DNA from: Pseudomonas alloputida
Lineage (GTDB): Bacteria > Pseudomonadota > Gammaproteobacteria > Pseudomonadales > Pseudomonadaceae
Direction: 5' to 3'
DNA length: 64,000 nucleotides
Assembly (NCBI RefSeq): GCF_021283545.2
Contig: NZ_CP128540.1
Coordinates: forward strand, 6,236,501 to 6,300,500
Program-made: the position numbers and the translations under genes
In this document: positions 18,031 through 44,317 of the stretch, piece after piece
Layout: each line of letters opens with the position of its first letter
How positions within the stretch are numbered: position 1 is the first letter of the stretch
Notes under the pieces: generated by a model
The model's input: only the letters and a program-made list of their open reading frames with translations
Databases searched by the model: none
Told to the model about the DNA's origin: nothing

Positions 18031-18064
18031 GATAACGACACGATGACCTCGTGATTACAATGCT
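18031..18064 (-). promoter_or_regulatory. CzcR-type promoter of eptA
   Basis: On the minus strand: box AGCATTGTAATC, 16 bases, then -10 element GTTATC. The same box and spacing recur at seven other promoters in this window, most closely in front of gtrA (27453-27486). It predicts a leader of about 195 nt before eptA. Confidence 0.7.
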
Positions 18065-18312
18065 GACAGAAATGCAATAACTGCTGTTTTAATTGCCATC
18101 GACCAGGCTATGATAAAAATTAGGGCGACACCATCTATTAAACGCAGAGCACCGCTCAGCTAGATAAATTTAATTTCACAAACAAAACGGCTTCGTTTTG
18201 ACGTAGGCTAATTTTGAACTTTCACTTTAACTTACAAGTCTTTCTCGCGAGCAGAACATTCTTTTCAACTTTTGCTCGTTAATATGTCACCCATCAATGA
18301 GGGGCGAATACC

Positions 18313-18651
18313 ATGAGCTTTTTCAAAAATATCCTGGGCGGGCACCATGGCCGTGGAAACCACGGTGGAGGCAAGCACCACAGCGGGGGACATGGGGCCG
18401 AGCAATACGATCGCCATGGCCGGCAGCAGGGCTGCGACGGCGGCAACCAGGTGTATGACGGCGGGCGCCATGCCACTCCAGCCCCCATTAAAGATCTGCA
18501 GGGCTGCAGGCAGTGCCGGACGGCCAACGATCCGTCAGCACGCTTTTGTCTAAACTGCGGAACACCACTATCGAGTGGTTGCACCGCCTGTGGCTCGTTG
18601 CTGAGCGCAGGAGCAAAATTCTGCAGTCAGTGTGGCCAAGCGACGCTCTAA
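18313..18651 (+). CDS. Zinc-ribbon protein with His/Gly-rich N-terminus
   Basis: 112 aa. A His/Gly-rich N-terminus (GGHHGRGNHGGGKHH) is followed by two zinc ribbons: CRQCRTANDPSARFCLNCG and CTACGSLLSAGAKFCSQCG. Cytoplasmic. Many potential metal ligands and a position 54 bases ahead of a CDF exporter gene suggest zinc sensing, storage or delivery. This is an inference from composition and neighbourhood. Confidence 0.85.
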   Translation: MSFFKNILGGHHGRGNHGGGKHHSGGHGAEQYDRHGRQQGCDGGNQVYDGGRHATPAPIKDLQGCRQCRTANDPSARFCLNCGTPLSSGCTACGSLLSAGAKFCSQCGQATL

Positions 18652-18705
18652 CGATAGGCAGACAGGAAGGCCAACGAGACCACAACCCTGCGCAAGGAGA
18701 AATAC

Positions 18706-19611
18706 GTGGGTTCAAATCATGACCATGGCAGCGCTGCAGTACGCGAGGGGCATCAGAAGAAGCTAATCATGGCGCTCGCCTTGACTGGCAGCTTCATGAT
18801 TGCAGAAGTGATCGGTGCGTGGATTACCGGCAGCCTGGCGCTGCTGTCTGACGCATCCCACATGTTCACAGATACTGCCGCCTTGGCGATCTCACTGATT
18901 GCACTTCAGATAGCCAAGCGCCCGGCGGATCAGAAAAGAACCTTCGGCTATGCGCGCCTGGAGATTCTGGCTTCGACGTTCAACGCCGTGCTGCTCTTCC
19001 TGGTGGCGATGTACATCTTGTACGAGGCCTACCAGCGCTTTTTCATGCCGGCGGAGATCGCTACCGGGGCGATGATGTGGATCGCAATCGCCGGCCTGAT
19101 CATCAACCTAATCTCGATGCGCCTTCTGGCATCTGCGAGCAACGAGAGCCTTAACGTCAAAGGCGCCTACCTCGAAGTTTGGAGCGACATGCTCGGCTCG
19201 CTAGGCGTAATCATTGCAGCACTCATCATCCGCTTCACGGGCTGGACCTGGGTCGACACGATTGTCGCTGTGGCAATCGGACTTTGGGTACTGCCGCGGA
19301 CGTGGCAGTTGCTTCGCGAAAGCCTGGGGATTCTCATGGAGGGTGTGCCGAGGGGGCTCGACGTTACGGCAATCGAGGCCACCATCCGCGGCGTAGATGG
19401 GGTCACGGACGTTCATGACTTGCACGTCTGGGCCGTCAGCAGTGGCAGCAACGTGATGACGTCGCACGTAGTGGTACGGGATTCTGCAGATGGGGATGCT
19501 GTGTTGGCGGCCGTCGTGGATGCTGTCAGCGATGGATTTGAAATCCATCACTGCACCATCCAGATCGAGCGGGCAGCTTTCCACGAGAGCGTTCCCTCGC
19601 CCTCGCACTGA
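18706..19611 (+). CDS. czcD: Cation diffusion facilitator (CzcD-like Zn/Cd/Co exporter)
   Basis: 301 aa from a GTG start with AAGGAG upstream. Six transmembrane helices; the metal-site motif SDASHMFTDTAALAISL in TM2 and WVDTIVAVAIGLWVL in TM5 are characteristic, followed by a cytoplasmic C-terminal domain (VHDLHVWAVSSG) that binds metal. It exports Zn2+/Cd2+/Co2+ from cytoplasm to periplasm by proton antiport, feeding the CzcCBA pump. Same strand as the zinc-ribbon gene, probably one operon. Confidence 0.95.
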   Translation: MGSNHDHGSAAVREGHQKKLIMALALTGSFMIAEVIGAWITGSLALLSDASHMFTDTAALAISLIALQIAKRPADQKRTFGYARLEILASTFNAVLLFLVAMYILYEAYQRFFMPAEIATGAMMWIAIAGLIINLISMRLLASASNESLNVKGAYLEVWSDMLGSLGVIIAALIIRFTGWTWVDTIVAVAIGLWVLPRTWQLLRESLGILMEGVPRGLDVTAIEATIRGVDGVTDVHDLHVWAVSSGSNVMTSHVVVRDSADGDAVLAAVVDAVSDGFEIHHCTIQIERAAFHESVPSPSH

Positions 19612-19635
19612 TCGATCGGTAAACACCATGCAGAC

Positions 19636-19663
19636 ACATCCCCTTCCTGGCTGAGGGGGATGT
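19636..19663 (+). terminator. Hairpin after czcD
   Basis: Stem ACATCCCC / GGGGATGT with an 12-base loop, 25 bases after the czcD stop. The T-run is poor, so it may be only a weak terminator. Confidence 0.45.
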
Positions 19664-19768
19664 TGTAGAAGAAATGCGATGAGGGATGGCGTAAACGGCA
19701 GGAGCACTTCGAGAGGGGTTGGAGAATGGCTTCACCTCCCCCGTCCACAATCCCCAGAAGGTTCAGCG

Positions 19769-20119
19769 ATGGCTTGGATCATCACGAAGTACCTACTCAC
19801 TGCCGGAATAGTGATTCTCGTATCAGAGCTGGCGAAACGCAGTGACAAGCTGGGCGGCCTGGTCGCCGCCCTACCCCTGGTCACTGTCTTGACGCTGGTC
19901 TGGCTCTATTTGGAGAACCAGAGCATGGAGAAGATCTCCAATCATGCTTGGTACACGTTCTGGTACGTGCTTCCTACACTGCCGATGTTTATCGCGTTCC
20001 CGTTGCTGCTACCTAAGCTCGGCTTCTGGCCGACCCTTATCAGCAGCATCCTCATCACAATGGCCAGTTTCGGATGTTTCGCCGTACTGCTGCGCCGGTT
20101 CGGCATTGAGCTTCTATGA
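19769..20119 (+). CDS. DUF3147 family small membrane protein
   Basis: 116 aa, almost wholly hydrophobic with four transmembrane helices and the conserved N-terminal SELAKRSDKLGGLVAALPLVTVL of DUF3147. Function not established for the family. AGAAGG ribosome-binding site before the ATG. It lies behind czcD on the same strand and may be co-expressed. Confidence 0.8.
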   Translation: MAWIITKYLLTAGIVILVSELAKRSDKLGGLVAALPLVTVLTLVWLYLENQSMEKISNHAWYTFWYVLPTLPMFIAFPLLLPKLGFWPTLISSILITMASFGCFAVLLRRFGIELL

Positions 20120-20151
20120 TCCGGCGACCGCAGACATCATCTTGATGAGCC

Positions 20152-20478
20152 TTAACGGCTGTTAATACACTCGCCCTTCACCAGGTAGCGAACCATGTGC
20201 AGCTCGCCTTTCGAGTCTTCGTAGGTCATCATACTTCTTACATTACCGCAGTACCGCACGCTGGGTGATACATACACCAACTTACCAACGTCAAGGTCCA
20301 TACCGTAGGCATAGTCTTCAAGTTGAGGCATGGGCTTTTTTACGCGCTGAGCATAATCCGCAGTAGCCTCTCTAGCAGAACGCTCAATGCGTTGGTTTAT
20401 TTCCATACCGCTTTGTGCATTGGCTGTTAGTGATGTGAAGAGCATAAACACGGCGATCGCTGATACAGTAGTGTTCAT
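20152..20478 (-). CDS. DUF2790 family secreted protein, copy 1
   Basis: 108 aa with a signal peptide (MNTTVSAIAVFMLFTSLTANA) and the DUF2790 core: YAQRVKKPMPQLEDYAYGMDLDVGKLV, a conserved cysteine pair (YCGNVRSMMTYED and GECIN) and KGELHMVRYLV. Periplasmic; function unknown, with members repeatedly found beside metal genes in Pseudomonas. Its start is preceded by a structured RNA with its own terminator, so expression may need read-through. A second copy lies at 33999-34322. Confidence 0.9.
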   Translation of the reverse strand: MNTTVSAIAVFMLFTSLTANAQSGMEINQRIERSAREATADYAQRVKKPMPQLEDYAYGMDLDVGKLVYVSPSVRYCGNVRSMMTYEDSKGELHMVRYLVKGECINSR

Positions 20479-20489
20479 AAGAAGTCCCT

Positions 20490-20660
20490 TAATAAAAAAG
20501 CGCCCGTAGGGGGGCGCTAAAATTCACCTACCAAAGGAGCGTATGGTTTACAGGTGAATGCATTGACGAGAACAACTGCCCGCTGCTCTTGCCAAGCTGC
20601 TTTGAAATGAGACAATTTCCAAAGCAGCGATGCCTCTTCCGCTGCCCTTAAACTAGCAAA
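20490..20660 (-). ncRNA. Structured leader or small RNA, copy A
   Basis: From the predicted start near 20660 to a terminator ending near 20494, the minus-strand transcript holds three hairpins: GCTGCTTTG/CAAAGCAGC (20620-20628 with 20596-20604), ATTCACCT/AGGTGAAT (20552-20559 with 20522-20529) enclosing the loop sequence GCTCCTTTGGTA (20540-20529), and the terminator AGCGCCC/GGGCGCT plus T6. The last two recur in copy B behind oprD (43988-44060). The terminator ends only about 15 nt before the DUF2790 start codon. Confidence 0.6.
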
Positions 20661-20664
20661 GGAG

Positions 20665-20698
20665 GCTAACACCAAGATGATCGCGCAATTACAATTTG
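20665..20698 (-). promoter_or_regulatory. CzcR-type promoter of the DUF2790/RNA A transcript
   Basis: Minus strand: box CAAATTGTAATT, 16 bases containing ATCATCTTG, then GTTAGC. Nearly the same downstream bases follow the box at 24065-24098 (TCACCTTG, GTTAGC). Confidence 0.65.
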
Positions 20699-21167
20699 GA
20701 CATGTAATAGATTGTAAGGTAATTATTCGGGAGACTACTGAGCCACCAAGTGAACTAATTCGCAGAAAGGCGTAGCAGTTCGCGGCCGTGCATGGGGACT
20801 GCCTGCGTGGCGCACTCGATGCAAGGCCAGCGCCAGTCTCTGCAAGCTGGCGACCGAAATACTGCCTGTCATGGCCGATTCCGCCTGTCAGGCGAAGCTG
20901 TCATACACCGTCGCAGACCCCAGAATCCGCTAAGCTCAGAGCTGGAGCCTGCATGACTGTCAGAAATCTTGCGGCTACATTACAAATTTGTAGGATTTCG
21001 CCGCGGCCAGCTTCTTCGCGTTAAGATTCAAGCGTCCTCAGGTGACCCGGCGTATGGACAGAGGTAGCGACTACCACATGCCATACCCTCAGCCTATCTT
21101 TCGAACAGCCTGCAACCATAATCTTGGCGGATTAGGCCAACTCCTTCCTCACACCTTGAGATAAGTT
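20699..21167 (+). promoter_or_regulatory. Upstream region of czcRS with a palindromic box
   Basis: About 470 bases with no convincing gene. The perfect palindrome TACAAATTTGTA at 20981-20992 lies about 180 bases before czcR and resembles the box of the metal promoters; it is a plausible CzcR autoregulatory site, although the following bases do not give the strict -10 seen elsewhere. A second TTGTAAGGTAATTA stretch is at 20712. Confidence 0.45.
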
Positions 21168-21842
21168 ATGCGCGTTCTAGTTGTGGAAGACGAAATTAAA
21201 ACTGCCGAATATCTTCAGCAGGGCCTATCCGAAAGCGGGTATGTCGTAGATATCGTGCACAACGGTGTAGATGCCCTGCACTTGTTCAACACTAATGTCT
21301 ATTCGTTGGTCCTTCTGGACGTGAACCTCCCCGGTATCGACGGCTGGGACCTGCTGGAAACCATCCGTAAGACCAGCCGGGTCCGCATCATCATGCTGAC
21401 CGCCCGCGGACGCATCAATGACAAGCTCAAGGGCTTGGACGGCGGCGCGGATGACTACCTTGTGAAGCCATTCGAATTCCCTGAACTGCTTGCTCGCATC
21501 CGTTCGCTGCAACGCCGTGGTGATGAGTTGGTCGAGAAGAGCTCGCTGAAAATTGCGGATCTGGAACTCGACTCCGTCCGCCATCGCGTCTTCCGCGGTG
21601 GCACACGCATCGATCTCACCACCAAGGAATTTGCGCTTCTGCACCTGCTCATGAGCCGAACGGGCGAAGCGCTGACTCGTTCCCAGATCATCTCGTTGGT
21701 CTGGGATATGAATTTCGATTGCGACACCAATGTCATCGATGTAGCCATCCGGCGCTTGCGCTCGAAGATCGATGACCCGTTTGAAACCAAGCTCATTCAC
21801 ACGCTTCGTGGCGTTGGGTACGTTTTTGAGGAACGCGCATGA
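21168..21842 (+). CDS. czcR: Heavy-metal two-component response regulator CzcR
   Basis: 224 aa, OmpR/PhoB type. Receiver domain with the acidic pair VVEDE, phospho-acceptor Asp in [16 protein letters not shown] and [12 protein letters not shown]; winged-helix DNA-binding domain from about residue 125 with [20 protein letters not shown]. It overlaps czcS by 4 bases. Expected to act on Zn/Cd/Co signals and to bind the ATTGTAAT-type boxes found in this cluster. Confidence 0.95.
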
Positions 21843-23257
21843 GGCCATTCAGCCTGGCTGCAAAGCTGGGGTTAAAAGTTGGGTTGATGAGCGCAGCGTT
21901 GCTGCTTCTGTTCGCCACCTTTGGCTATCTGATGGTAGGTAAGGCTCTGGAAAGAAATGCCCGAGCGGACCTGGAAGTAAAGATGGCGGGGATGGCTCAC
22001 AACCTGTCCACCATCCCGGATACCTCCGGCGTCAACGCAGATGCACATCAGCTTGTCGATTTGGTCATGGGCCACAACAACCTGTATGTGAGCATATTCG
22101 ATACCTCACAGAATCAGACTCCTCTGCTCTCGATTGGCTCGAAACAGGTCAATCTGGAGGTGCACAAGTTTCAGCCGGCGGCCCAGCCTAAAGAGCATGA
22201 ATGGCGTGATACGCAGGACCGTCCTCTGCTGAGTGCTTCTCGGATCATGCGCTTGGGCGATGGAACAGAGGTCAGCGTCTATATGACCATGGACCAGTCA
22301 TCCAGTGAGGCACTGCTTGATGCGTTGCTGACTTGGGCCTTGATGATGTCCCCCGTCATCCTCGCACTGATCTTGGCCATTGGCTGGTGGACCGTGCGCA
22401 GAGGCCTGCTGCCGCTGACCAAATTCCTCAAGGTGGCGTCAAAGATCTCAACGGAGAGCCTCGACCATCGTCTTCCGACTGATGGGATGCCGGCAGAACT
22501 CAAGAAGCTCGCCGACGGCATCAACATCATGCTGGCTCGCCTGGATGATGGCGTTCAGCAGCTCTCGCAGTTCTCTGACGACCTTGCCCACGAACTTCGA
22601 GCACCGCTTTCCAACCTGATGGGCAAGGCCCAGGTTGCCTTGACCAGAGAAAGATCGCTTTCCGAGTACCGGGAGGTTCTAGAGTCGTGCACAGAAGAGT
22701 TGGACCGCATGAGCCGCATGGTTTCCGACATGCTGTTCTTGGCCCAGGTCAGTCACCCTGCGTCCATGGTGGAGTTCGAACCGGTGTCCCTGGTCGACGA
22801 GGTTCAGCGCGTATGCGACCTCTTCAGCATTTCGGCAGAGGAAGGCGAGATCCAGCTGCAGATTTCTGGGAGTGATGATGTGGTACGCGGGAACCGCCTG
22901 ATGGTTCAACGGGCCGTCTCAAACCTCGTGTCGAACGCGATCCGCTACTGCCCTCGCGGCCGCACGGTCTACGTGAAGGTGCAGCATAGTGCGAGCGGTA
23001 CGACCTTGAGTGTCGGCAACCCCGGCCGCGGTATTGCCAAGGAACACCATGCGCACTTATTTGAGCGGTTCTACCGTGTGGACAAGAGCCGAGCACGGAG
23101 CGAAGGCGGTACCGGTCTTGGCTTGGCCATTGTGCAGTCGATCATGAGCCTGCACCAAGGGTCGGCGAGCGTGGAGGTGACCGAAGAAAACTTCACCTGG
23201 TTCCACCTTCACTTTCCCGCAGCCCAGCAACTGCAGCCAGCAATGACCGCCGCTTAA
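21839..23257 (+). CDS. czcS: Heavy-metal sensor histidine kinase CzcS
   Basis: 472 aa. TM1 (residues 10-35), a periplasmic sensor region to about residue 160, TM2 ([18 protein letters not shown]), HAMP, the phospho-acceptor His in [17 protein letters not shown], and an ATPase domain with N-box [13 protein letters not shown] and G-boxes NPGRGI and [10 protein letters not shown]. It senses periplasmic metal and phosphorylates CzcR. Confidence 0.95.
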
Positions 23258-23275
23258 ACCGCGCAGACATGATTA

Positions 23276-23300
23276 GGCCCGTCCATCGACGGGCCTTTTT
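23276..23300 (+). terminator. Terminator of czcRS
   Basis: Stem GGCCCGTC/GACGGGCC with loop CATC followed by TTTTTG, about 20 bases after the czcS stop. Confidence 0.9.
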
Positions 23301-23314
23301 GTTTGCTCAATGCA

Positions 23315-23902: not shown

Positions 23903-24064
23903 GGCTATCTCCTAGGGCGGCCAACAACGCCGCGCTGAATTAACGCGCTAGATATCAAAATTGTAATTTAAGAGAAAATTCTTAGTCGCCCTCGACAGTG
24001 CCGAGATAGACATGATCCTTCCAGATTTGAGGATTTAACGCATCCTGCCTGCCGCCAAAATTAC

Positions 24065-24098
24065 GGAATTGTAATTATTGACTCACCTTGTCGTTAGC
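24065..24098 (+). promoter_or_regulatory. CzcR-type promoter of the small secreted protein
   Basis: Box GGAATTGTAATT, 16 bases (containing TCACCTTG), then GTTAGC. Same spacing as the eptA, gtrA, DUF2790, czcC and oprD promoters. An additional box AAAATTGTAATT at 23957-23968 lies 100 bases upstream without a matching -10. Confidence 0.65.
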
Positions 24099-24168
24099 TT
24101 CGCGTTCCTAAACTACAAACCAACAAAGGCCGCTAATCAGGCAGGCCTAGTATGAACCGAGGTTCACA

Positions 24169-24390
24169 ATGAAATTTGTCAAATCTATCGCTATTGGCAG
24201 CCTGCTGCTGGGTCTCATGGGTACCGCTTACGCTGAAGGTGGCTTCGAGCGAGCGAAACAGTTCAATGAAAACTTCCGAACCGAACAGGCTCGCCTATGG
24301 AGCGATGACTCTTCGGACCAGAACAAACAACAAGTCGCTCAAGAGCAAAAGAAAGAAAGCAAGGATGGTAAGGAACAAGCCGACAATTAA
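24169..24390 (+). CDS. Small secreted protein, possibly PtrA-N-terminal-like
   Basis: 73 aa: signal peptide (MKFVKSIAIGSLLLGLMGTAYA) followed by a hydrophilic, Gln/Lys/Asp-rich mature part of about 50 residues starting EGGFERAKQFNENFRTEQ. The composition resembles the short periplasmic, metal-induced proteins labelled PtrA N-terminal in Pseudomonas; this is a tentative match. The CzcR-type promoter upstream and terminator downstream make it a single-gene unit. Confidence 0.8.
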   Translation: MKFVKSIAIGSLLLGLMGTAYAEGGFERAKQFNENFRTEQARLWSDDSSDQNKQQVAQEQKKESKDGKEQADN

Positions 24391-24462: not shown

Positions 24463-24472
24463 TGCTTGGAAT

Positions 24473-25927
24473 TTAGCCTTCGTTCTTGCGAGGCGTTTCC
24501 GCATTGCTTTCTCCAGCCAGACCCTCGGCACCTTGTACGGTACGTTTCCAATGGCACAGCATGAGCTGGCTGGCGTTCGCTTCGGTGATCGCTGTACATG
24601 CTAGATCAGCGGGCAGACCATCCTTGCTGTCTCGCAAGCGCCTGGACAGATAGAACGAGCCATCCTGCGGCCACTTGGCAGGATCCTTGATGTTCTCGGA
24701 CTTTCCGCTGCTGTAAAACTCCGACGAGTATGAGCGGCGGCCAGGATAGATCAGGGGAGCGGAATGAGCAGACTGCACATTGAGCCAGGCTTGAACCACA
24801 TCTCGCTGATTCTGAGGTCGCTCCTCAAGTACCCCGGCGTAGATGATGCCCGCACCGATGATTGGTAACACCAATGCACTCGCCGCGGCAGCCCATGTAG
24901 TCTTCGGGCCAACATCGCTGATCCGTCCGGATAGCAGCAATGCCCAGGCTGGCAGCGCAGGTAGCAGGTAGGTCCACAGAATGTTGCCTGCAAATGTGAA
25001 GAAGACCGGTGTCGCCAAGGCCCACAGCCAGAGGTAAGCCTCGAAGCGCTGCATTGATTCACGCTTGCGGATCAGTAATGGTAAGAAAAAGGCCCACGGC
25101 AGTAGCGACAGTCCGAGCTGGATCCAGATGGTGCCATATGGCTTGGCATGAGCACTGCCGTATAGGTCGCCCGCCCAGTTACTGACGACGTAGCGGCTCC
25201 AGTGCTCACCAACGAAGAAGTACTCCATGAAGCCGGGCGTTTTCATCTCGGCCGCGACATACCAAGGCACGGATATACCGAACATGAGTACAAGGCCGCT
25301 GATCCAGGGAAGCCTCAGTACCCGTCCCCATTCCTTGTAGATAACGAACCAGGCGAATGCCGGCGCCCCCATAAGCACTAGGGTCAGAGGGCCTTTGGCA
25401 AGCAAGCCCAGCCCGAGACCTGCGAACATCAGGTAGGCATCCGCCTTGCTGGCGCACTTCATCCAACGCCAGAAACCGTAGCTGGCCAGCAGAATCGAGA
25501 ACGACAAAACAGGGTCGGTCAGCACGACACCGCTGGAGACTAGGCCAAGGGTGGTGCTGGAAAAGATAATGGCGGCCCAGATGCCGGCGTTACGGGAAAT
25601 CTGCTGCGTGCCGAGTTTGATGATGATGAAACAGCTTGCCAGGTGCAGCAGCCACGCCGGGAAACGCGCAGCGAACTCGTTAACGCCGAAGACCGTCATG
25701 CTTGCGGCCTGGGTCCAGAAGGACAACGGTGGCTTGCCCCAGAACGGTACCCCGTAGTCGAACATGGGCGTGATCCAGTCATTCAACTCGACCATCTTGC
25801 GAGCCATTTCAGCGTAGCGAGCCTCCGATGTGTCCATCAGTGGATAGATGCCCAGCCCCACCAAACGCAAGAGCAAAATCGAACCCAGGATCCACCACAG
25901 CGTCCGCTCGTTTTTCAGGCTCAGCAT
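24473..25927 (-). CDS. ArnT/PMT-family membrane glycosyltransferase
   Basis: 484 aa with about 10-12 transmembrane helices. The first periplasmic loop has the GT-C catalytic signature LMDTSEARYAEMARKM, with WITPMFDYGVPFWGKPPLSFW following, as in ArnT. It uses a polyprenyl-phosphate sugar to modify lipid A or other envelope glycans in the periplasm. Third gene of gtrA-GT2-arnT; its ATG overlaps the GT2 stop. No arnA/arnB neighbours, so the sugar may not be aminoarabinose. Confidence 0.88.
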   Translation of the reverse strand: MLSLKNERTLWWILGSILLLRLVGLGIYPLMDTSEARYAEMARKMVELNDWITPMFDYGVPFWGKPPLSFWTQAASMTVFGVNEFAARFPAWLLHLASCFIIIKLGTQQISRNAGIWAAIIFSSTTLGLVSSGVVLTDPVLSFSILLASYGFWRWMKCASKADAYLMFAGLGLGLLAKGPLTLVLMGAPAFAWFVIYKEWGRVLRLPWISGLVLMFGISVPWYVAAEMKTPGFMEYFFVGEHWSRYVVSNWAGDLYGSAHAKPYGTIWIQLGLSLLPWAFFLPLLIRKRESMQRFEAYLWLWALATPVFFTFAGNILWTYLLPALPAWALLLSGRISDVGPKTTWAAAASALVLPIIGAGIIYAGVLEERPQNQRDVVQAWLNVQSAHSAPLIYPGRRSYSSEFYSSGKSENIKDPAKWPQDGSFYLSRRLRDSKDGLPADLACTAITEANASQLMLCHWKRTVQGAEGLAGESNAETPRKNEG

Positions 25928-26904
25928 TTCTTACCCTCGATCGAGGCCATCGAAGGGTGGAGTGACACGGGATCCGCCTTGCTGCTGTGCTTCAGGAAAT
26001 AGAGAGGCCGGCGCTTCACTTCCGCGAGTGTCACGCCCAGGTACTCCCCCACCATGGCGACACCGACGCACATGAATGAAGCCATTCCGACGATCAGGTG
26101 ATGGATGTCGAAACTTCCTGCCACAAGCGACGCAAGCATGTAGCAGATGCTGGAGACGAAAAGACCGAAACTGATGAGGCTGAAAATGCGCAGCGGTTTG
26201 CGAGAGAAGCTGACGATGCTTTCGATGGCCAGATTGAACAGGCCAGCTGCATTCCACTTGGTGCTGCCGGCATGGCGAACGGTGCGATTGTAGGGCAGCT
26301 CGATGGTACGGAAGCCTACCCAGCCGATCATGCCTTTGAGAATCCTGGAGCGTTCGTCCAGCGCCCGCAGTGCTGCCAGCGGCGCAGGCCCAATCAATCG
26401 GAAATCGCTGACATCGGCCGGCATGTCCACCTTCTCCACCAGGCGCTGCATGACCCAGTAGTAAGCCCGGGCACTCATGCGCTTAAACCACGAATCACCG
26501 ACTCTCAGGTTGCGTTGCATGTTCACCACGTCGTAACCGCGTTGCCAGTGGTCCACCATGGCCGAGATGAGCTCTGGTGGGTCCTGCAGGTCGACATCGA
26601 TGAAGATCAGCGCACTGCCACGGGCATGGTCTATCCCGGCGCTGAGTGCAGCCTCTTTGCCGAAGTTGCGACTCAGGGACAGACAACGTACAGATGACCC
26701 ATCCTGATAGTGGCGAAGAATGTCGGCCGTTCGGTCGTTACTGCCATCGTCGATATAGAGGATTTCGCAGGAGACGGGTAAGCGCTTCACGACGCGGGTG
26801 ATCCGCTGGTGGAACTCGGGGATGGTTTCCTCTTCCTGGAAGCAAGGGACGACGATGGTTAACAAGGGATCAGGGCGCTCGGGAAAGCGATGTAATGTCT
26901 GCAT
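25921..26904 (-). CDS. GT2 polyprenyl-phosphate glycosyltransferase (GtrB/ArnC-like)
   Basis: 327 aa from ATG 26904. GT-A domain: LTIVVPCFQEEETIPEF, YIDDGSNDRT and the metal-binding IDVDLQDPPE; then two C-terminal transmembrane helices (IFSLISFGLFVSSICYM; MASFMCVGVAMVGEYLG) typical of GtrB/DPM1-like enzymes. It charges undecaprenyl phosphate with a sugar at the inner face. Overlaps gtrA by 35 bases, indicating tight coupling. Confidence 0.9.
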   Translation of the reverse strand: MQTLHRFPERPDPLLTIVVPCFQEEETIPEFHQRITRVVKRLPVSCEILYIDDGSNDRTADILRHYQDGSSVRCLSLSRNFGKEAALSAGIDHARGSALIFIDVDLQDPPELISAMVDHWQRGYDVVNMQRNLRVGDSWFKRMSARAYYWVMQRLVEKVDMPADVSDFRLIGPAPLAALRALDERSRILKGMIGWVGFRTIELPYNRTVRHAGSTKWNAAGLFNLAIESIVSFSRKPLRIFSLISFGLFVSSICYMLASLVAGSFDIHHLIVGMASFMCVGVAMVGEYLGVTLAEVKRRPLYFLKHSSKADPVSLHPSMASIEGKKC

Positions 26905-27289
26905 GATTGAATGTCCAAAAACGATGTGCAATGAATCCAAGTGCAGTGAGGCTTAAGGTCACTACAAGTTGGGAGATGAGCGGTGACAGATTCGACTTGA
27001 TGAGGAACCACATACCCACGCCATTGCCGAAGTTTGTGGCTAACGCGACCAGTGCAAACCTGACAGGCTGAAACTTACGAGAGCCATCTGACACAAAGCA
27101 GAGCGCCCTATTTCCAATAAAGCTTGCGATAGCGCCAACCATGCCTCCACAGATACTGGCTAGCAATGGAGTAGATAATTCTGTCGTAACCAGCACTAGG
27201 AACACCGCATAATGGATTCCCGTTGCTATGAAGCCGATCCCCAGATAACGAATCAGTAAGGTAGTAAGAGGTAGGGTTTGATTTTCCAT
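26870..27289 (-). CDS. gtrA: GtrA-family membrane protein (candidate lipid-linked sugar flippase)
   Basis: About 139 aa, four transmembrane helices, GtrA/DPMS1 family (LIRYLGIGFIATGIHYAVF, FIGNRALCF, HRFWTF). It probably flips the undecaprenyl-phosphate sugar made by the GT2 enzyme to the periplasmic side for the ArnT-like enzyme: a complete make-flip-transfer set. ATG 27289 is preferred over the upstream TTG at 27295. Confidence 0.88.
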   Translation of the reverse strand: MENQTLPLTTLLIRYLGIGFIATGIHYAVFLVLVTTELSTPLLASICGGMVGAIASFIGNRALCFVSDGSRKFQPVRFALVALATNFGNGVGMWFLIKSNLSPLISQLVVTLSLTALGFIAHRFWTFNHADITSLSRAP

Positions 27290-27452
27290 GCCCAAAGCCT
27301 ATGGAGGCAAAGGTGAAAAAAAAGTGAACCAAATGTAAATGCGTAATTGGCTAAATTTAGATCTGCCAAGTAATGAAATTGGCGCGCTAGGCTAGCACGC
27401 TACAATATCAGCAAGATTGCTCGAAAATTACGCTTTCGAAATAAAACCTTCC

Positions 27453-27486
27453 GATAACGCATGCATGACCTGCGGATTACAATGCT
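27453..27486 (-). promoter_or_regulatory. CzcR-type promoter of the gtrA-GT2-arnT operon
   Basis: Minus strand: box AGCATTGTAATC, 16 bases containing AGGTCAT, then GTTATC. Box and -10 are identical to those of the eptA promoter. The predicted leader is about 155 nt and contains a polypurine motif (27314-27329) close to the start codon. Confidence 0.7.
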
Positions 27487-27546
27487 GACAAGATAAGGAA
27501 ATGCTGGGTGGCATTGAGATAGATTCCCCGAATTAAGGGGGACCCA

Positions 27547-33998: not shown

Positions 33999-34322
33999 CT
34001 ACTTGTTGTTGATGCATTGCGAATACATCGAGTAACGAACAGTCTTGAGCGTGCCCTGGGAGTCCTCGAAGGTCATCAACCGTGGGTAGACCTGGCAGGT
34101 ACGTGGGTCCTGCGACTGACGTACGAACTTAGCAACGTCTATCTTCATGCCATATTTGTAATCCTGAATCTCTGGCATTGGCTTGCCATTTTTCTCCGCG
34201 TACTTGGCCACTGCGGTCTGGTGCTCCTTGGTGTATTGCAGCTGCTTGCTCTCGGAAAAAGTGTTGGCCTGCGAAGCCACCGAGAAAACAACAAGTGCAG
34301 CAGCGATAATTAGCTTTTTCAT
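33999..34322 (-). CDS. DUF2790 family secreted protein, copy 2
   Basis: 107 aa: signal peptide MKKLIIAAALVVFSVASQA and the DUF2790 core (KNGKPMPEIQDYKYGMKIDVAKFV, RTCQVYPRLMTFEDSQG, YSQCINNK). The two cysteines align with those of copy 1. Single-gene unit with its own CzcR-type promoter (34373-34406) and terminator. Periplasmic, function unknown. Confidence 0.9.
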   Translation of the reverse strand: MKKLIIAAALVVFSVASQANTFSESKQLQYTKEHQTAVAKYAEKNGKPMPEIQDYKYGMKIDVAKFVRQSQDPRTCQVYPRLMTFEDSQGTLKTVRYSMYSQCINNK

Positions 34323-34372
34323 AAAACCCTCTCAATTTCAAAACTTCTCGGGCGTAACCTTAGCAATGCATA

Positions 34373-34406
34373 GGCATCACCGGCATGACGAGAAACTTAC
34401 AATTTT
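34373..34406 (-). promoter_or_regulatory. CzcR-type promoter of DUF2790 copy 2
   Basis: Minus strand: box AAAATTGTAAGT, 16 bases (containing TCATGCC), then GATGCC. The -10 is the weakest of the set but box and spacing hold. It lies just downstream of the intron's 3' end. Confidence 0.55.
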
Positions 34407-34435
34407 GAAAGGTAAGTGCATCTACTTCACTTTAA

Positions 34436-36357
34436 ATCGAGTAGGAGGCGGATTCACACCCGCCGTCCTCTCACACCACCGTGCGTACGGTTCCGTACAC
34501 GGCGGTTCAGGTTACGCGGCTAAGCCGGTTAATCGTATCCAGTATCGAGACCAGCCCGAGCCGGTCCCACAGTTTCTTTGGCAGCGCGTAGTTCATATGT
34601 TGCGCTCCCGAATTCCACCATGGACCTCGGCCATTGAAGGCTGACTTGTTGGCACGCTCCTCGCTCAACCCCAGGCGCATCAAGTTTCTCAGCCTCGTGG
34701 GAGGCTGCTTCCATTGACGCCAGATGACGCAGCGGAGTTTGTGCCTGACCCAACCATCCAGTTCCTCAAGCGGCCGCTTGCTCTGGCTGAGCTTGAAGTA
34801 GCTAGCCCAGCCTCTCAGGACGGGGTTGATCCGCTCGATGACAGTCGCCATTTTGCGAGCCCGTACGCTGCGCAGCAGCATTCTGAGCCGGTCGCGTAAG
34901 CGGTCTAGGCTCATCCTTGCCACGCGCAGCCTTGGCTGCTGGTGCCAGCTCATCCCATAGCCTAGGTAGTCGCACTTCCACGCCCTTGCCACTTGGCTTT
35001 TCTTCCTGTTCACCGTCAGCTTCAGACGTTCTCTCAGGAAGCGCTCGACGCTGACCAACACCCGTTCGCCGGCCCGGGGACTGCGTACATAGATGTTCGC
35101 ATCATCGGCATAACGTACGAAGCGATGGCCCCGCCGCTCCAGCTCGCGGTCGAGTTCGTCGAGCAGGATATTCGACAGCAACGGCGAAAGCGGGCCGCCT
35201 TGCGGCGTCCCCTCCTGCCGTGGGCTGACGACACCGCCCGACATGATCCCGGCTTCAAGGTAGCGGCGAATAAGCCTGAGTACGCACTTGTCTTTGATCC
35301 GACGTTCGATGCAGGCCATGAGGATGTCGTGATTGACCCGATCGAAAAACTTCTCCAGATCGAGTTCCACGCACCAGCGGTGTCCCGCTGTCACATGAGC
35401 ACGGGCCATCTCGATGGCTTGATGCGTACTTCTGCCCGGACGAAAACCATAGCTGTAGTCCGAGAACAGTGGGTCGAAGATAGGTGTGAGCTGCTGCTGC
35501 AGTGCTTGCTGGATCAGGCGATCCACGACGCTGGGGATACCCAGTTGCCGTGTGCCGCCCTGCGGCTTGGGAATTTCAACCGCTCGCACTGCTTGGGGAT
35601 GGTATTCACCGGCCAGCAACCTGGCCTTGAGGGTTGGCCAATACTGTTTCACGTAGCCCGCCAAGTCAGCGACCGTCATGCCATCGGCACCCGGAGCCCC
35701 CTTGTTGCTAACCACGCGTTGATACGCACGCCTGAGGTTGGCCGGTGCAAGCACCCGCTCCATCAGCGTGTCCGGCTCCGCGTTCGTCCACGTCGCTGAC
35801 GCCGCCGGCACCTTTGCACTGTCAGGCATCACCCTCGGCTTCTGGCCGGGATTCGGGATGACAGTTTCCGCTGTGGGAAATTTCTGCATTACGGTTACCA
35901 ACGAGACGGCGACGCCTACTGGCGGCATAACCTGTTCGGCCCTTGGTGGCGCGGTTAACCGCCACTTACTACGGCTTCGGCTGACTTCTGCACGCTCGTC
36001 CCGTCGCCTTTCGACGCGCGGTAGCACAGTGGCAAGCGTACAGATCTCCCAGGGTAATTCGCGCGACCTTCCTGCTTATGCCTGTCGGATCTACGTCACA
36101 GCGTTCCGTGCAAGTATTGGGCTTTGGCGATTTGTGCCACCTCACCCCGCTGTGCCGCCTCTATCCGCTTCCTGTTCGTCAGGCCAGCATTTTGCCTCGG
36201 GCTTCCTTCAGATTCGCGGTCACCCGCGACACCCTTGCCTCCGGCTAACACTTCCCCTTGCCGGGTGTGTAGAGGACTTTCACCTCCAAGTCACCCACTT
36301 GGCCACCACAACCAAGCGGGTTGCGCTTACGCGCAACGCGCCATGCCTGGCGCACAC
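34436..36357 (-). mobile_element. Group II intron (class C-like) behind the czcCBA terminator
   Basis: On the minus strand the element begins GTGTGCGCCAGGC (5' end at 36357) and ends CCTACTCGAT (3' end at 34436). A domain V-like hairpin lies near 34455-34505 (GTGTACGGAACCGTACGCAC) and domain VI just beyond. The first base follows directly on the T-run of the terminator at 36358-36387, the hallmark insertion site of class C introns. About 1.92 kb including the maturase. No target duplication, as expected for retrohoming. Confidence 0.88.
34507..36027 (-). CDS. ltrA: Group II intron reverse transcriptase/maturase
   Basis: Up to 506 aa; the true start may be an internal Met, as the first 90 residues are not family-like. 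RT domain: GAPGADGMTV, IPKPQGGTRQLGIPSVVDRLIQQAL, DYSYGFRPGRSTHQAI, EGTPQGGPLSPLLSNILLDELD and catalytic RYADDANIYV; then an X/maturase domain (GIIM-like, INPVLRGWASYF). It ends without an HNH endonuclease, as in class C. It splices and mobilises the intron. Confidence 0.93.
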   Translation of the reverse strand: MLPRVERRRDERAEVSRSRSKWRLTAPPRAEQVMPPVGVAVSLVTVMQKFPTAETVIPNPGQKPRVMPDSAKVPAASATWTNAEPDTLMERVLAPANLRRAYQRVVSNKGAPGADGMTVADLAGYVKQYWPTLKARLLAGEYHPQAVRAVEIPKPQGGTRQLGIPSVVDRLIQQALQQQLTPIFDPLFSDYSYGFRPGRSTHQAIEMARAHVTAGHRWCVELDLEKFFDRVNHDILMACIERRIKDKCVLRLIRRYLEAGIMSGGVVSPRQEGTPQGGPLSPLLSNILLDELDRELERRGHRFVRYADDANIYVRSPRAGERVLVSVERFLRERLKLTVNRKKSQVARAWKCDYLGYGMSWHQQPRLRVARMSLDRLRDRLRMLLRSVRARKMATVIERINPVLRGWASYFKLSQSKRPLEELDGWVRHKLRCVIWRQWKQPPTRLRNLMRLGLSEERANKSAFNGRGPWWNSGAQHMNYALPKKLWDRLGLVSILDTINRLSRVT

Positions 36358-36404: not shown

Positions 36405-39572
<3,168 letters not shown>

Positions 39573-39590
39573 TCATCCTGTCAGTTCGCA

Positions 39591-40841: not shown

Positions 40842-40909
40842 TGCTACTCCTGCTGATCGTAGGCACCGGCTTGTTCAAGGCTGTGTGCCGAAGAAAATGT
40901 TTGGCCCGT

Positions 40910-42181
40910 TCAGCGAGCGCCGGCAGTTGAGCCGACTTCGCCATAAACCCTTTCCACCTGCGCACGCGCATTGGTCGCCGCTGCCAACGATTCGAGATAT
41001 TGGCCACGAGCGACGATCAAGGTGCGCTGGGCATCCAGCACTTCGATGAAGCCGAATTTGCCCATCTCGAAGCCGCGGGTTGCGGTATCTACGGCTTGTT
41101 GGGCTGACGGCAGAATGGTCTTGTCGTAGGACTCGACCTCCTGCATGGCGGTGGACCACTGGTTCAACGCGGTTTGGGTTTCGGTGCGCAGCCGCAGCTC
41201 CACAGCATTGCGCTGGTCTCGGGCCTGATCTGCACGACGAGAAGCGGAAAGAATGTTGCCCTGGTTGCGATCAAACAGCGGCAAAGGCATAGAGACGCCC
41301 ACAGTGTTGACACGCTCGCGCACAGAGCGGTCGTACTGGCTACCTACGCTGACGGTAAGGTTCGGGATACGCTGAGCTTTCTCTGAACCGAGCGAGGCAT
41401 CGCTCTTGTCGATCTGTACCACGGCCTGGCGCATTTCTGCGGTCTGATCGAGCTTCGCCAGCAGCTCTTCAGTCCGCGGTGGCAGTCCCGGGGAGAGGGT
41501 TGGCGATTCGAGTCGATCAAAGACGGTGACCGAGCTCCCGGTAATTTGAGCGAGTTGCTGGTAAGCGGTCGTCTTTTCGGTTTCGGCACGTCGAACTTGC
41601 AGCTTTGCTTCGGCCAGTTGTACTTGGGCGCGGGTGGCCTCTACTGGAGACGATTTACCTGCGCGAACACGACCATCGACGATGCGGAGACCGCGCTCAG
41701 TCAGTTCGAGAGATTGCTTGGCCAGGTCAAGGCCTGTCTGGGCCCGCAATGCGGCGTAGAAGGCCTGTACGACGTCTGCCCGCAGACCGTTCACGCGACG
41801 GTCCAACTCCAGCTGTGCGGCGGTCTGCCCGTAAGTGGCGACGTCAACACGAGCTCCCCGCTTACCACCCAGCTCCAGGGTTTGGCTAAGCGACACGGTC
41901 GTCGTGCTGGTGTTACGACGGGTGTCTTCCACGTCGTACGAAATAGTGGGGTTGGGGATAAGCCCGGCCTGCTTGCGAGCACCATCAGCGATGCCAATCT
42001 CTTGCCGGGCCGCGGCCAGGTCAGGGTTGGCATCCATGGCCGTCGAAAGCGCCTGGGGCAAGCTGATGCTTTGAGCAAGAGCTGCAGGTGCCATCAATCC
42101 AGAGATGACTGCACAGAGTGCAGCGATCTTCCAGGGCGAGACGGAGGTCTTGGATAAGACATTGCGGTTATACCGGGGCAC
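40910..42181 (-). CDS. czcC: Outer-membrane efflux channel CzcC
   Basis: About 423 aa of the TolC/OEP family: signal peptide (WKIAALCAVISGLMAPAALA) and two OEP repeats (LPQALSTAMDANPDLAAARQEI; VSLSQTLELGGKRGARVDVA; VSMPLPLFDRNQGN). GTG 42181 is chosen because GAGGA lies 8 bases upstream and because the ATG at 42268 would fall only about 15 bases after the predicted -10. First gene of the operon. Confidence 0.92.
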   Translation of the reverse strand: MPRYNRNVLSKTSVSPWKIAALCAVISGLMAPAALAQSISLPQALSTAMDANPDLAAARQEIGIADGARKQAGLIPNPTISYDVEDTRRNTSTTTVSLSQTLELGGKRGARVDVATYGQTAAQLELDRRVNGLRADVVQAFYAALRAQTGLDLAKQSLELTERGLRIVDGRVRAGKSSPVEATRAQVQLAEAKLQVRRAETEKTTAYQQLAQITGSSVTVFDRLESPTLSPGLPPRTEELLAKLDQTAEMRQAVVQIDKSDASLGSEKAQRIPNLTVSVGSQYDRSVRERVNTVGVSMPLPLFDRNQGNILSASRRADQARDQRNAVELRLRTETQTALNQWSTAMQEVESYDKTILPSAQQAVDTATRGFEMGKFGFIEVLDAQRTLIVARGQYLESLAAATNARAQVERVYGEVGSTAGAR

Positions 42182-42282
42182 TTTGATGGTCCTCGTGCAC
42201 AAACTTCGATAAAGCTTGGCGAGAACGCCGAAACAGCTGCCAAGCCCCACTTGATTAGGTGATGGCACTCTAATGAGCGGTA

Positions 42283-42316
42283 GCTATCAGAGGGGTGGCT
42301 AGAAAATTACAATTTC
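42283..42316 (-). promoter_or_regulatory. CzcR-type promoter of czcCBA
   Basis: Minus strand: box GAAATTGTAATT, 16 bases (containing CCACCCC), then GATAGC. The inverted twin driving oprD is at 42437-42470. Confidence 0.75.
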
Positions 42317-42436
42317 GTAAGAAAGTCCTGTAATGCCCGAAAATACTGGGAAACCAAACCCGGCACTAGGATTTCGTTACAAGCAACGGAGATGGCAAAC
42401 ACGCGGTGCGAAGGCGCCGAATAACAGGCAGATGAC

Positions 42437-42470
42437 GAAATTGTAATTGTCCTATCACCCTCCCGTTATC
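42437..42470 (+). promoter_or_regulatory. CzcR-type promoter of oprD
   Basis: Box GAAATTGTAATT (identical to the czcC box), 16 bases (containing TCACCCTC), then GTTATC. Predicted leader about 110 nt before the porin ATG. Confidence 0.75.
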
Positions 42471-42585
42471 TTCGGCCTGCAAATATGAGCTCGCGCTACG
42501 CTAGGCGCGCCGCCGGGTCAGAACAATTAACGACACCCGCGCCGGTAAACATAATAAAAACTGCCGTGAATCAAAGGAGCATCGG

Positions 42586-43929
42586 ATGAAAATCAAAGTA
42601 CCACTGTATTTGGCGGCAGTTTCTGCGCTGTCTGGAAGCTACGCTATTTCGGCACAAGCTGAAGACAAGCCAGAAGGCTTCATTGAAGGCAGCAGCCTTA
42701 CAGTGTTGAACCGTAACTTCTACTTCAACCGTGATAATCGCGACAGCACCGCCCCCACTTACAACAGTGGCAAGGGCAATACCAACGGCTACTCCGAAGC
42801 CTGGGCGCACGCGATCATCAGTAAATTCAACTCTGGGTTTACCCAGGGTACCGTTGGCTTCGGCGTTGATGCCTTCGCCATGATCGGCCTCAAGCTCGAC
42901 ACCGGTGATGGGCGCAACGGCGGCCGTAGCTCCTTCGACGTGCTACCCGTTGATAACAAGGGCGAAGCTCGCGACGAATACACCAAGGTCGGCGGTGCAG
43001 CCAAAGTCCGCTTGTTCGATACCATCGTGAAAGTAGGTGATGTTTTCCCATCGACTCCGGTCGTTGCATCCGGTGACTCTCGCCTGCTGCCAGAAAGCTT
43101 CCGCGGCGTGACCGTTGAGAACACCAGCATCCAAGGCCTCACCCTTCAGGGTGGTCGACTGCACGCCATGAGCCAGCCAGTCTCCAGCAACCTGAACGAC
43201 AACTTCGTGACCTTCTACGGCGGCCCGGTCAACTCGCCATGGATCGGTTACGGTGGTGGTGACTACTCGATCAACGACAACTGGACTGTGAGCGTCTACG
43301 CCAGCCAGCTGAAAGACGTCTGGAATCAGTACTACGCCGGCACCAGCGTTGTTTACCCGCTGAGCGACGATCTGGCGCTGATCGGTGGCTTCAACTACTA
43401 CAAAGCCGTAGATGAAGGTAAGAAGCGCCTGGGTGAATTCGACAACAACATCTGGAGTGCCAAGGTCGGCGTGCGTTACGGCGCCCACACCCTGGCCCTG
43501 TCGCACCAGCGCAACAACGGCGACGACGATTTCGACTATCTGCGTCAGTCGGACTCGATTTTCGTCGACAACTCCATCCAGTACAGCGACTTCAACTCGC
43601 CGAAAGAGCGTTCCTGGATGCTGCGCTATGACCTGAACTTCACCAGCTACGGCATCCCAGGCCTGACGTTCATGACCCGCTACGCCAGAGGCTCGGGCGC
43701 GGATTACTCGAACGCTAACCAGTTCTACATGCGCACCGACGACAACGGCAACCCGCTCGACAATCAGAAGCGTTGGGAGCGTGACGTCGAAGTCAAATAC
43801 GTTGTGCAAACCGGTCCGGCAAAAGACTTGTCCTTCCGGTTGCGCCAGGCAACCACGCGTGCCACTGCTTTCGAATCGGATCTGGATGAAACTCGTGTAA
43901 TCATCGAGTACCCGCTTTCGATTCTGTAA
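42586..43929 (+). CDS. OprD-family porin linked to czcCBA
   Basis: 447 aa: signal peptide (ending AISAQA) and OprD barrel (GFIEGSSLTVLNRNFYFNRDN, EAWAHAIISKFNSGFTQGTVGFGVDA, GYGGGDYSINDNWTVSVYASQL), ending VIIEYPLSIL. It is divergent from czcCBA under a matching promoter. CAAAGGAGC (42572-42580) is its ribosome-binding site and is complementary to the loop of the RNA element lying behind this very gene. KT2440 has an OprD paralogue (opdT-like) at the equivalent place. Confidence 0.93.
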   Translation: MKIKVPLYLAAVSALSGSYAISAQAEDKPEGFIEGSSLTVLNRNFYFNRDNRDSTAPTYNSGKGNTNGYSEAWAHAIISKFNSGFTQGTVGFGVDAFAMIGLKLDTGDGRNGGRSSFDVLPVDNKGEARDEYTKVGGAAKVRLFDTIVKVGDVFPSTPVVASGDSRLLPESFRGVTVENTSIQGLTLQGGRLHAMSQPVSSNLNDNFVTFYGGPVNSPWIGYGGGDYSINDNWTVSVYASQLKDVWNQYYAGTSVVYPLSDDLALIGGFNYYKAVDEGKKRLGEFDNNIWSAKVGVRYGAHTLALSHQRNNGDDDFDYLRQSDSIFVDNSIQYSDFNSPKERSWMLRYDLNFTSYGIPGLTFMTRYARGSGADYSNANQFYMRTDDNGNPLDNQKRWERDVEVKYVVQTGPAKDLSFRLRQATTRATAFESDLDETRVIIEYPLSIL

Positions 43930-43987
43930 TTCGCTGAGCGGGCCAGTCTTTCGACGGCTGGTCCGATTAGTAAAACGAGCATTACGA

Positions 43988-44060
43988 ATTCACCTTGAGT
44001 GGCTTAATTGCTCCTTTGGTAAAAGGTGGATATTTGGCGCCCATTGGGCGCCTTTTTTTT
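43988..44060 (+). ncRNA. Structured RNA element, copy B (3' end of the oprD transcript)
   Basis: A 9-bp stem ATTCACCTT/AAGGTGGAT (one G-U pair; 43988-43996 with 44023-44031) encloses GCTCCTTTGGTA (44010-44021), followed by the terminator GGCGCCC-ATT-GGGCGCC plus T8 (44036-44060). Loop, stem design and terminator repeat copy A at 20490-20559. It starts 58 bases after the porin stop, so it may be released from the oprD mRNA. Confidence 0.6.
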
Positions 44061-44062
44061 GC

Positions 44063-44212
44063 CTAAAATTCAAGTAAGCGTTCGATTGTACGCATTGCAT
44101 GCCGGTGAAGTTCATGACTACACCAATGACCAGTCTCCTCAACATGAGCGACCTCGCCGTCATCCGAACGGAACGAAGCTAGCACAAAGAAGAAAATAAC
44201 CCAGTATTTCAT
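44063..44212 (-). CDS. Small secreted His/Cys-containing peptide (49 aa)
   Basis: Minus-strand frame beginning MKYWVIFFFVLASFRSDDGE and ending RTIERLLEF, with a hydrophobic signal-like N-terminus and a mature part bearing four His, one Cys and several Glu (HVEETGHWCSHELHRH). A promoter with the shared box, 16-nt spacer and GATAGT lies 72 bases upstream. The ribosome-binding site is weak. Metal binding is an inference from composition. Confidence 0.5.
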   Translation of the reverse strand: MKYWVIFFFVLASFRSDDGEVAHVEETGHWCSHELHRHAMRTIERLLEF

Positions 44213-44283
44213 ATGGTCAAATCATCCGCTGGAGAGAGGGCCCGCAACTGTCAAACCCAAGCCGCGACAAGATATACCTCCAG

Positions 44284-44317
44284 ACTATCAACTGTATTAC
44301 CTAGAAATTACAAATCC
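44284..44317 (-). promoter_or_regulatory. CzcR-type promoter facing the 49-aa gene
   Basis: Minus strand: box GGATTTGTAATT, 16 bases, then GATAGT. It points away from the divergent czcR-like gene at 44419, although it could also serve that gene's autoregulation. Confidence 0.55.

Follow-up and report, generated by a model that had tools for sequence, protein, structure and literature searches.

A stretch of 64,000 nucleotides from Pseudomonas alloputida (the window, bases 6236501-6300500 of a single-contig, 6,438,596-base Pseudomonas genome) carries a metal-efflux locus between 16 and 45 kb, in which one type of operator recurs before eptA, two DUF2790 genes (a and b), sec73 (encoding a secreted-type protein of 73 amino acids (aa)), the gtrA-GT2-arnT-like operon, czcCBA, the gene for an OprD-family porin and the gene for a 49-aa peptide. 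These sites are very likely operators of heavy-metal response regulators of the CzcR/CopR group, which would activate the genes together under metal. The operator family is real and of a known kind, and it is in wider use than the available literature passages describe; metal pumps, a porin and two outer-membrane lipid modifications are probably all induced by zinc-type stress. A preliminary description of this DNA had proposed a shared CzcR/CopR regulon on the basis of eight sites. The operator class and its place before efflux, porin, DUF2790 and two lipopolysaccharide (LPS) units stand, the promoter geometry probably does not, and the proposal was incomplete in omitting the ColR box and the second operator of the gtrA operon.

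The operator is proposed to start with an imperfect inverted repeat (TKWC-N6-GTAAK) whose dyad would lie near -53. RTCAY and GWTAKC come next, in phase at distances of 11 and 22 bp, and a sigma-70-type -10 (TAnnnT) would stand ten nt beyond the last element. A phosphorylated CzcR-type protein probably occupies the dyad and activates transcription, perhaps also contacting, with RNA polymerase, the elements further downstream between -39 and -23. Under an excess of zinc, cadmium or a related metal, czcCBA, the gene for the OpdT-like porin, the two DUF2790 genes, the genes for the two small proteins, eptA and the gtrA-GT2-arnT-like operon would be induced together, the last being additionally under ColR. 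What we infer in this scheme is which regulator acts, where transcription starts, what the downstream elements do and that eptA is induced.

All eight 34-nt stretches of the preliminary description were re-read and found at their coordinates, with exactly 16 nt between the 12-nt box and the hexamer in 8/8 on either strand. The box ATTGTAAT is exact in six sites, the DUF2790b and 49-aa peptide sites having ATTGTAAG and TTTGTAAT, respectively, and the hexamer G(T/A)TA(T/G)C is exact in six, the other two reading GATGCC and GATAGT. The spacing far exceeds chance, since TTGTAA-N18-G[AT]T[AG][TGC][CT] occurs eight times in the window and with the other 40 spacers three times in all, while 200 first-order Markov sequences averaged 0.07 at spacer 18, with a maximum of 2 there and of 3 at any spacer. 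The box itself turned out to be the right half of the imperfect inverted repeat TKWC-N6-GTAAK, the left half-site having been overlooked. The dyad TKWCNNNHTTGTAAK, a pattern fitted to the eight, is present in 8/8 and has 17 matches in the genome, eight of which are these (the reversed pattern has 2); its left half is strict TKAC in four dyads and TGTC or TTTC in the other four. With a matrix built from the eight, these score 38.4-44.3, a ninth site missing from the preliminary description 31.0 and the next place in the window 15.0. When each site was left out in turn, three were outranked by a single place, which is the ninth site itself (27404-27441).

18031..18068 (-): operator before eptA; dyad 18054-18068, in-phase element 18043-18047, hexamer 18031-18036; inferred -10 AATAAT 18015-18020
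20665..20702 (-): operator before DUF2790a; inferred -10 TAGTTT 20650-20655
24061..24098 (+): operator before sec73; inferred -10 TAAACT 24109-24114
27453..27490 (-): distal of the two operators before gtrA-GT2-arnT-like; TAnnnT missing from its usual position
27404..27441 (-): proximal operator before gtrA (ninth site); inferred -10 TAGCCT 27389-27394
27313..27328 (-): ColR box before gtrA, 0 mismatches
34373..34410 (-): operator before DUF2790b; inferred -10 TAAGGT 34357-34362
42283..42320 (-): operator before czcCBA; inferred -10 TAGAGT 42267-42272; dyad centre 132.5 nt before GTG 42181
42433..42470 (+): operator before the OprD-family porin (OpdT-like); inferred -10 AAATAT 42481-42486
44284..44321 (-): operator before the 49-aa peptide, divergent from the response regulator at 44419; inferred -10 TATCTT 44269-44274

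Three further places were rejected. The dyad CTACAAATTTGTAAT at 20956-20993 (-), upstream of czcR1, scores 14.2 without the downstream elements and may be an autoregulatory site of a different kind; TATCAAAATTGTAAT at 23953-23990 (+), about 108 bp upstream of the sec73 operator, scores 11.5 and likewise lacks the downstream elements, hexamer included. A dyad-like place at 34147 inside DUF2790b coding DNA has no hexamer either.

Recurrence in the genome and the genus

Sequence, spacing, genus-wide recurrence and, by alignment, the position of the -10 were observed directly. In a scan of the 6.44-Mb genome with a sequence-only profile of the eight sites, whose E-values are rough by the tool's own statement, the eight were recovered at E 9e-6 to 9e-5, a match by construction. 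Two further sites followed at E 0.0035 and 0.0044 and nothing else fell below 0.29; these lie at C1:2576125 before an OprD paralogue (76% identical) and at C1:4083505 before a CzcC paralogue (70%). A heavy-metal response regulator at C1:5107733 has two places at E 0.3 directly upstream of it, and the ninth site reached only E 0.4.

Under stricter filters, 33 of 59 genus genomes, this one included, hold a profile match at E<=0.01. The best match was examined in each of 29 other genomes (L087-L115), six of which hold the same locus as the window. In 26 cases the gene behind it is a homologue of one of the eight, comprising 15 oprD/opdT, 6 czcC, 2 DUF2790, 2 eptA and 1 sec73-like; the three unassigned are L107, where the operator precedes an 85-aa secreted-type open reading frame (ORF), L108 and L110. 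The operator before metal-efflux genes thus recurs in other genomes. For part of the remaining genus matches, 38 further stretches were taken, in which 82 sites score at least 19: 21 before oprD, 18 before czcC (one a remnant), 15 before DUF2790, 4 before sec73, 4 before the gtrA operon, 3 before eptA, 2 before the 49-aa peptide and 1 each with czcD, a weak czcB-like or a czcS-like match downstream, with 8 unassigned and 4 too near an end. One of the unassigned, a weaker match, stands before a cupredoxin-like ORF in L142 (G027:C1). Several loci (window 24169-24390; L107, L129, L130, L141) have a small ORF of secreted type behind the operator, 73-85 aa long, the sequences showing little evident identity to one another.

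Conservation gene by gene was counted in 25 loci from named Pseudomonas (L019-L043), wherever the gene start and upstream DNA were present, at 60% identity and one gene per place. The operator is kept before eptA in 19/19, DUF2790a in 20/20, sec73 in 24/24, the gtrA operon in 21/22 and DUF2790b in 16/16, and before czcC, oprD and the 49-aa peptide in 2/2 each, counts that are not independent events because many of the loci are near-identical copies. In the same loci no operator was found before the neighbouring genes cadA (0/14), oprP (0/17), lysR (0/19), czcD (0/22), czcR1 (0/22), hyp195 (0/23) and hyp341 (0/13), and czcD, cadA, oprP, lysR and czcR1 were accordingly dropped as operator-bearing members. 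The motifs are short and AT-rich, and a recurrence by chance or compositional artefact might be imagined on that ground; the genome search, genus matches, spacing statistics and per-gene conservation contradict it, leaving it a negligible probability.

Promoter geometry

The preliminary description had taken the hexamer as the -10, with the box over the -35. In its full form this geometry has the dyad overlapping the -35 and transcription starting 6-8 nt after the hexamer, and it draws on the spacing fixed in 8/8 and on the -35-like TTGTAA 18 nt before the hexamer. It was examined with 244 genus sites scoring at least 24 from related loci and genus genomes, reduced to 61 by removing those at least 60% identical over 128 nt (over 143 nt, 61 again). 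As the sites were picked by the profile, columns 1-38 are biased and columns 39 onward unbiased. Columns 50 (A in 50/61) and 54 (T in 49/61) are conserved although they lie outside the profile, and the hexamer was therefore dropped as the -10. When columns 16-79 are scored with E. coli -10 weights, 32 of the 61 sites have their best -10-like hexamer at column 49, 7 at column 35 and 3 at column 48; within columns 39-79 only, the 48/49 pair takes 42/61, against a maximum of 12 in 500 tail rotations. TAnnnT accordingly stands 10 nt beyond the hexamer across the 61 non-redundant sites, and the alignment places the -10 that much further on. In 37 diverged orthologous sites, identity is 83% in columns 48-54, 71% in columns 39-47 and 58% in columns 55-77.

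Within the window, (T/A)AnnnT is found at column 48 or 49 in 8/9 sites. Two observations weigh against the new geometry. The distal gtrA site lacks the pattern at either column. In addition, (T/A)AnnnT occurs in 5/9 window sites at column 35, the hexamer reading shifted by two, as often as at column 49, and 7/61 genus sites have their best hexamer there, which speaks for the older geometry. Because of these five, the nine window sites alone cannot decide the -10. Judged on the alignment, the hexamer is probably not the -10, and the geometry that makes it so is improbable. With the -10 at columns 48/49, the hexamer (columns 33-38) would fall at about -28 to -23 and the dyad centre at about -53 from the inferred start site. 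The footprints of AgrR from Cupriavidus metallidurans, -65 to -35 and -63 to -32 in the passages of PMC7380067, fit a dyad near -53 and go against the hexamer as -10.

Three elements, GTAAT (column 11), RTCAY (22) and GWTA (33), are 11 bp apart and in phase, and A25 of RTCAY is present in 61/61 sites, the selecting profile including that column. This arrangement is like that of AgrR, whose inverted repeat is joined by an in-phase half-site repeat on the promoter side, mutation of which largely affected activation (PMC7380067, in part); the counterpart here is RTCAY at +11, a putative regulator contact. Unlike the AgrR box ATKACANNNNTGTMAT, the sites have an extra in-phase element at +22 that is strongly conserved. 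Compared with the window dyads, the right half of the AgrR consensus fits and the left half fits more loosely. The sites offer a concrete promoter architecture for the study of CopR/CzcR-class activation.

Candidate regulators and metal response

Two CzcR/CopR-type regulators are encoded in the window, as the preliminary description stated: czcR1 (21168-21842) and the gene at 44419-45093 are both over the TIGR01387 cut-off, as are five response regulators in the whole genome, these two included. Papers are the source for the binding of CzcR at czcC1 and for the induction of several orthologues by metal. In P. putida KT2440, CzcR directly activates czcCBA1 and czcCBA2, with footprints on czcC1 and czcC2 (PMC8469834); that on czcC1 spans -120 to -144 from the start codon and contains aTTAC-N6-GTAAT. 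By calculation it coincides with the window czcC dyad, whose centre is 132.5 nt from GTG 42181, and this P. putida form is the CzcR form that fits the dyads. The KT2440 operator is thus like the present one in its dyad and its distance from the czcC start; it differs in that the available passages report it only for czcC1, czcC2 and czcRS3 and describe neither downstream in-phase elements nor a fixed -10.

Expression data for KT2440 at 1.5 mM zinc, obtained by RNA sequencing, give 127-fold induction for PP_0035, 182 for PP_0034, 54 for PP_0033, 97 for opdT1 (PP_0046), 35-49 for czcCBA1 and 27 for PP_0047 (PMC6066579). In PAO1, opdT is a CzcR target by chromatin immunoprecipitation (ChIP) (PMC13209446), and a review credits CzcR with the activation of an OprD porin in P. 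stutzeri (PMC10393844). The proposal that zinc, cadmium or cobalt stress co-induces efflux, porin and two LPS modification systems is borne out for the zinc induction of the KT2440 gtrA operon, opdT1 and czcCBA in these passages.

Several findings weigh against CzcR-type activation through the whole operator. The approximately 25-bp czcC1 footprint maps to the dyad only (about columns -4 to 20), and to neither RTCAY nor GWTAKC. The P. aeruginosa CzcR consensus GAAAC-n6-GTAAT fits 0/8 dyads within 2 mismatches in register, and the CopR consensus fits all eight within 3. In KT2440, czcD (9-fold), cadA1 (10) and oprP (13) are zinc-induced (PMC6066579), yet their counterparts here are operator-free. 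CzcR represses oprD in P. aeruginosa (PMC10393844), so that the presence of an operator alone does not tell activation from repression. No expression data were found for eptA, which is absent from the main text of PMC6066579, where phosphoethanolamine occurs only in a reference. Among the literature matches listed, a set in which subscription journals were mostly outside the scope, no report has eptA or the gtrA operon as a CzcR/CopR target. The P. aeruginosa ChIP motif GAAABCTWHGVGYAAY was rejected, as no dyad matches it within 3 mismatches in register; a single match with 2 mismatches (27416-27431) overlaps the ninth site, though in a different register.

The operators might instead belong mainly to copper regulators of the CopR type. 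The CopR consensus CTGACA-n5-GTAAT (PMC11195947) comes within 1 mismatch of the eptA dyad besides fitting the other seven, the P. aeruginosa CzcR consensus fits none, and five regulators over the cut-off are available in the genome. The CopR/CusR boxes of Pseudomonas resemble the sites in the GTAAT half-site and in shared targets, and are unlike them in serving copper regulators and in a left half of TGACA or ATTCAT. The strong zinc induction of the KT2440 orthologues and the P. putida CzcR footprints with aTTAC-N6-GTAAT argue the other way, which makes a mainly CopR-type assignment rather unlikely. Targets common to CzcR and CopR are reported in P. stutzeri (PMC10393844), and both may act. 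For the CzcR/CopR group preferred here, CzcR alone cannot be named, because five response regulators exceed the cut-off and the CopR consensus is nearer than the P. aeruginosa CzcR one.

Lipid A genes, ColR and the encoded proteins

The ninth site forms a second operator before gtrA, 49 bp downstream of the first. Two operators precede gtrA in 19 of 22 related loci and one in two (L035, L036); none precedes GT2 in L042, because gtrA lies elsewhere on that contig, with operators there. A ColR box, YYNASNNYTTTTTSAC, follows at 27313-27328 with 0 mismatches, and within one mismatch such a box comes after the gtrA operators in 21/22 related loci. The window sequence 27297-27346 is identical in 48/50 positions to the KT2440 PP0035 stretch printed in PMC2689224. 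The gtrA-GT2-arnT-like operon is a member of the P. putida ColR regulon and responds to zinc (PMC2689224, PMC4074579); that regulon uses a different box from the present one, and eptA of the window clade has no ColR box within one mismatch.

It may be asked whether the LPS genes respond to zinc through ColR only, the boxes described here being inert relics of island assembly. The exact ColR box before gtrA and the ColR dependence of PP0035 (PMC4074579, PMC2689224, in part) would suit this. Against it are the missing ColR box at eptA of the window clade, the eptA operator conserved in all 19 loci and a partial zinc response that the PP0035 promoter retains without ColR, as passages of PMC4074579 describe, so that ColR as sole route is very unlikely. 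The two gtrA operators would explain that ColR-independent partial activation, a possible answer to a published loose end.

EptA homologues (E<=1e-60) were found in 43/59 genus genomes, in 61 rows. Upstream DNA was tested for 56 copies, from 30 initial loci and 26 of 27 further stretches (L206 gave no alignment), with start positions extrapolated from the alignment; outside the 56 are a two-piece copy with an operator (two rows; L150, G030:C26:56854-58292), G030:C9 (L127), whose operator lies about 1 kb upstream, a partial row in G034 and L206. Of the 56, 8 have the operator, 24 a ColR box within one mismatch, 0 both and 24 neither, the chance expectation of a ColR box being 0.033 per stretch. 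The eight comprise every tested copy with an identity of about 57% or more to the window protein. The eptA of the window locus (L155) has no ColR box within 1 mismatch in 500 nt, and the second EptA of this genome (L210) has neither element. About 1 kb separates the upstream operator from eptA in L160 and L161, occupied by a czcC remnant and a small ORF or by a transposase-like ORF (names partly by eye).

In a midpoint-rooted tree of the 30 proteins from the initial loci, a branch with support 100/99 sets the eight operator-bearing proteins apart; the larger group in which they fall also contains three ColR-box proteins, whose position is unsure because of the midpoint root and their long branches. 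A single switch from ColR to the metal operator would account for this most simply. An EptA clade with the metal operator beside ColR-box lineages is new here and the most interesting new point. We see an even chance that EptA changed regulator once, from ColR, an envelope/metal sensor, to the CzcR/CopR class, on joining a horizontally spreading metal-efflux locus, and that the operators are at the same time four-part and 11-bp-phased, with the element near -25 a true regulator contact. If so, a single type of operator would put efflux, porin and two lipid A/LPS modification systems under the control of metal exposure, linking environmental metal exposure directly to EptA/ArnT-type lipid A modification genes, with a bearing on polymyxin tolerance and co-selection. 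A transposase-like ORF between the operator and a 57%-identical eptA was seen in L161, L118 and L127.

The genes between 16 and 45 kb are, in order, eptA, czcD, a DUF3147-like gene (czcD and DUF3147 being names we presume), DUF2790a, czcR1-czcS1, sec73, arnT-like/GT2/gtrA, lysR, the OprO/P porin gene, cadA, DUF2790b, a group II intron reverse transcriptase, czcA-czcB-czcC, the OprD-family porin gene, the 49-aa peptide and the second heavy-metal response regulator.

16127..17830 (-): EptA-type lipid A phosphoethanolamine transferase; NF028537 639 bits (cut-off 500), PF08019, PF00884
20152..20478 (-): DUF2790a protein; PF10976
21168..21842 (+): czcR1, heavy-metal response regulator; TIGR01387 342 bits (cut-off 279)
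21839..23257 (+): czcS1, heavy-metal sensor kinase; TIGR01386 449 bits (cut-off 293)
24169..24390 (+): sec73, 73-aa secreted-type protein; signal-like start judged by eye, operator kept in 24/24 testable loci, no family match in the domain and family scans of window proteins
24473..25927 (-): ArnT-like PMT-fold transferase; PF02366, ArnT model NF009784 132 bits, below the cut-off of 567
25921..26940 (-): GT2 glycosyltransferase, ArnC-like; PF00535, NF007986 137 bits, below the cut-off of 529
26870..27295 (-): GtrA-type membrane protein; PF04138
33999..34322 (-): DUF2790b protein; PF10976
36405..42268 (-): czcA, czcB and czcC efflux genes; TIGR00914 1723 bits, PF02321, PF16576; czcC start probably GTG 42181
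42586..43929 (+): OprD-family porin (OpdT-like); PF03573
44063..44212 (-): 49-aa peptide with conserved HWCSHE(L/F)HR core, by sequence comparison
44419..45093 (C1:6280925-6281581) (+): second heavy-metal response regulator; TIGR01387 over cut-off, 67% identical to czcR1

The KT2440 locus tags run in the same order (PP_0026 czcD, PP_0029 czcR1, PP_0033-0035, PP_0037 oprP, PP_0041 cadA1, PP_0043-0045 czcABC1, PP_0046 opdT1, PP_0047 response regulator; PMC6066579, in part), a comparison made with locus tags and the one printed 50-nt stretch from papers.

The 49-aa peptide has 11 homologues, none with a Pfam domain; the eight compared share FRSDDGEV and HWCSHE(L/F)HR, and the family is possibly a metal-binding membrane peptide. 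In L160 a similar small ORF with GHWCIHELHR lies ahead of the 57%-identical EptA. The group II intron reverse transcriptase (34507-36027, -) stands between czcA and DUF2790b, recurs in L022 and L041, and is absent where czcA directly precedes DUF2790b (e.g. L020). GT2 (25921-26940) is 100% identical across differently named Pseudomonas, including P. lundensis, P. saxonica and others (L019-L022, L041), which suggests a recent horizontal spread of the locus.

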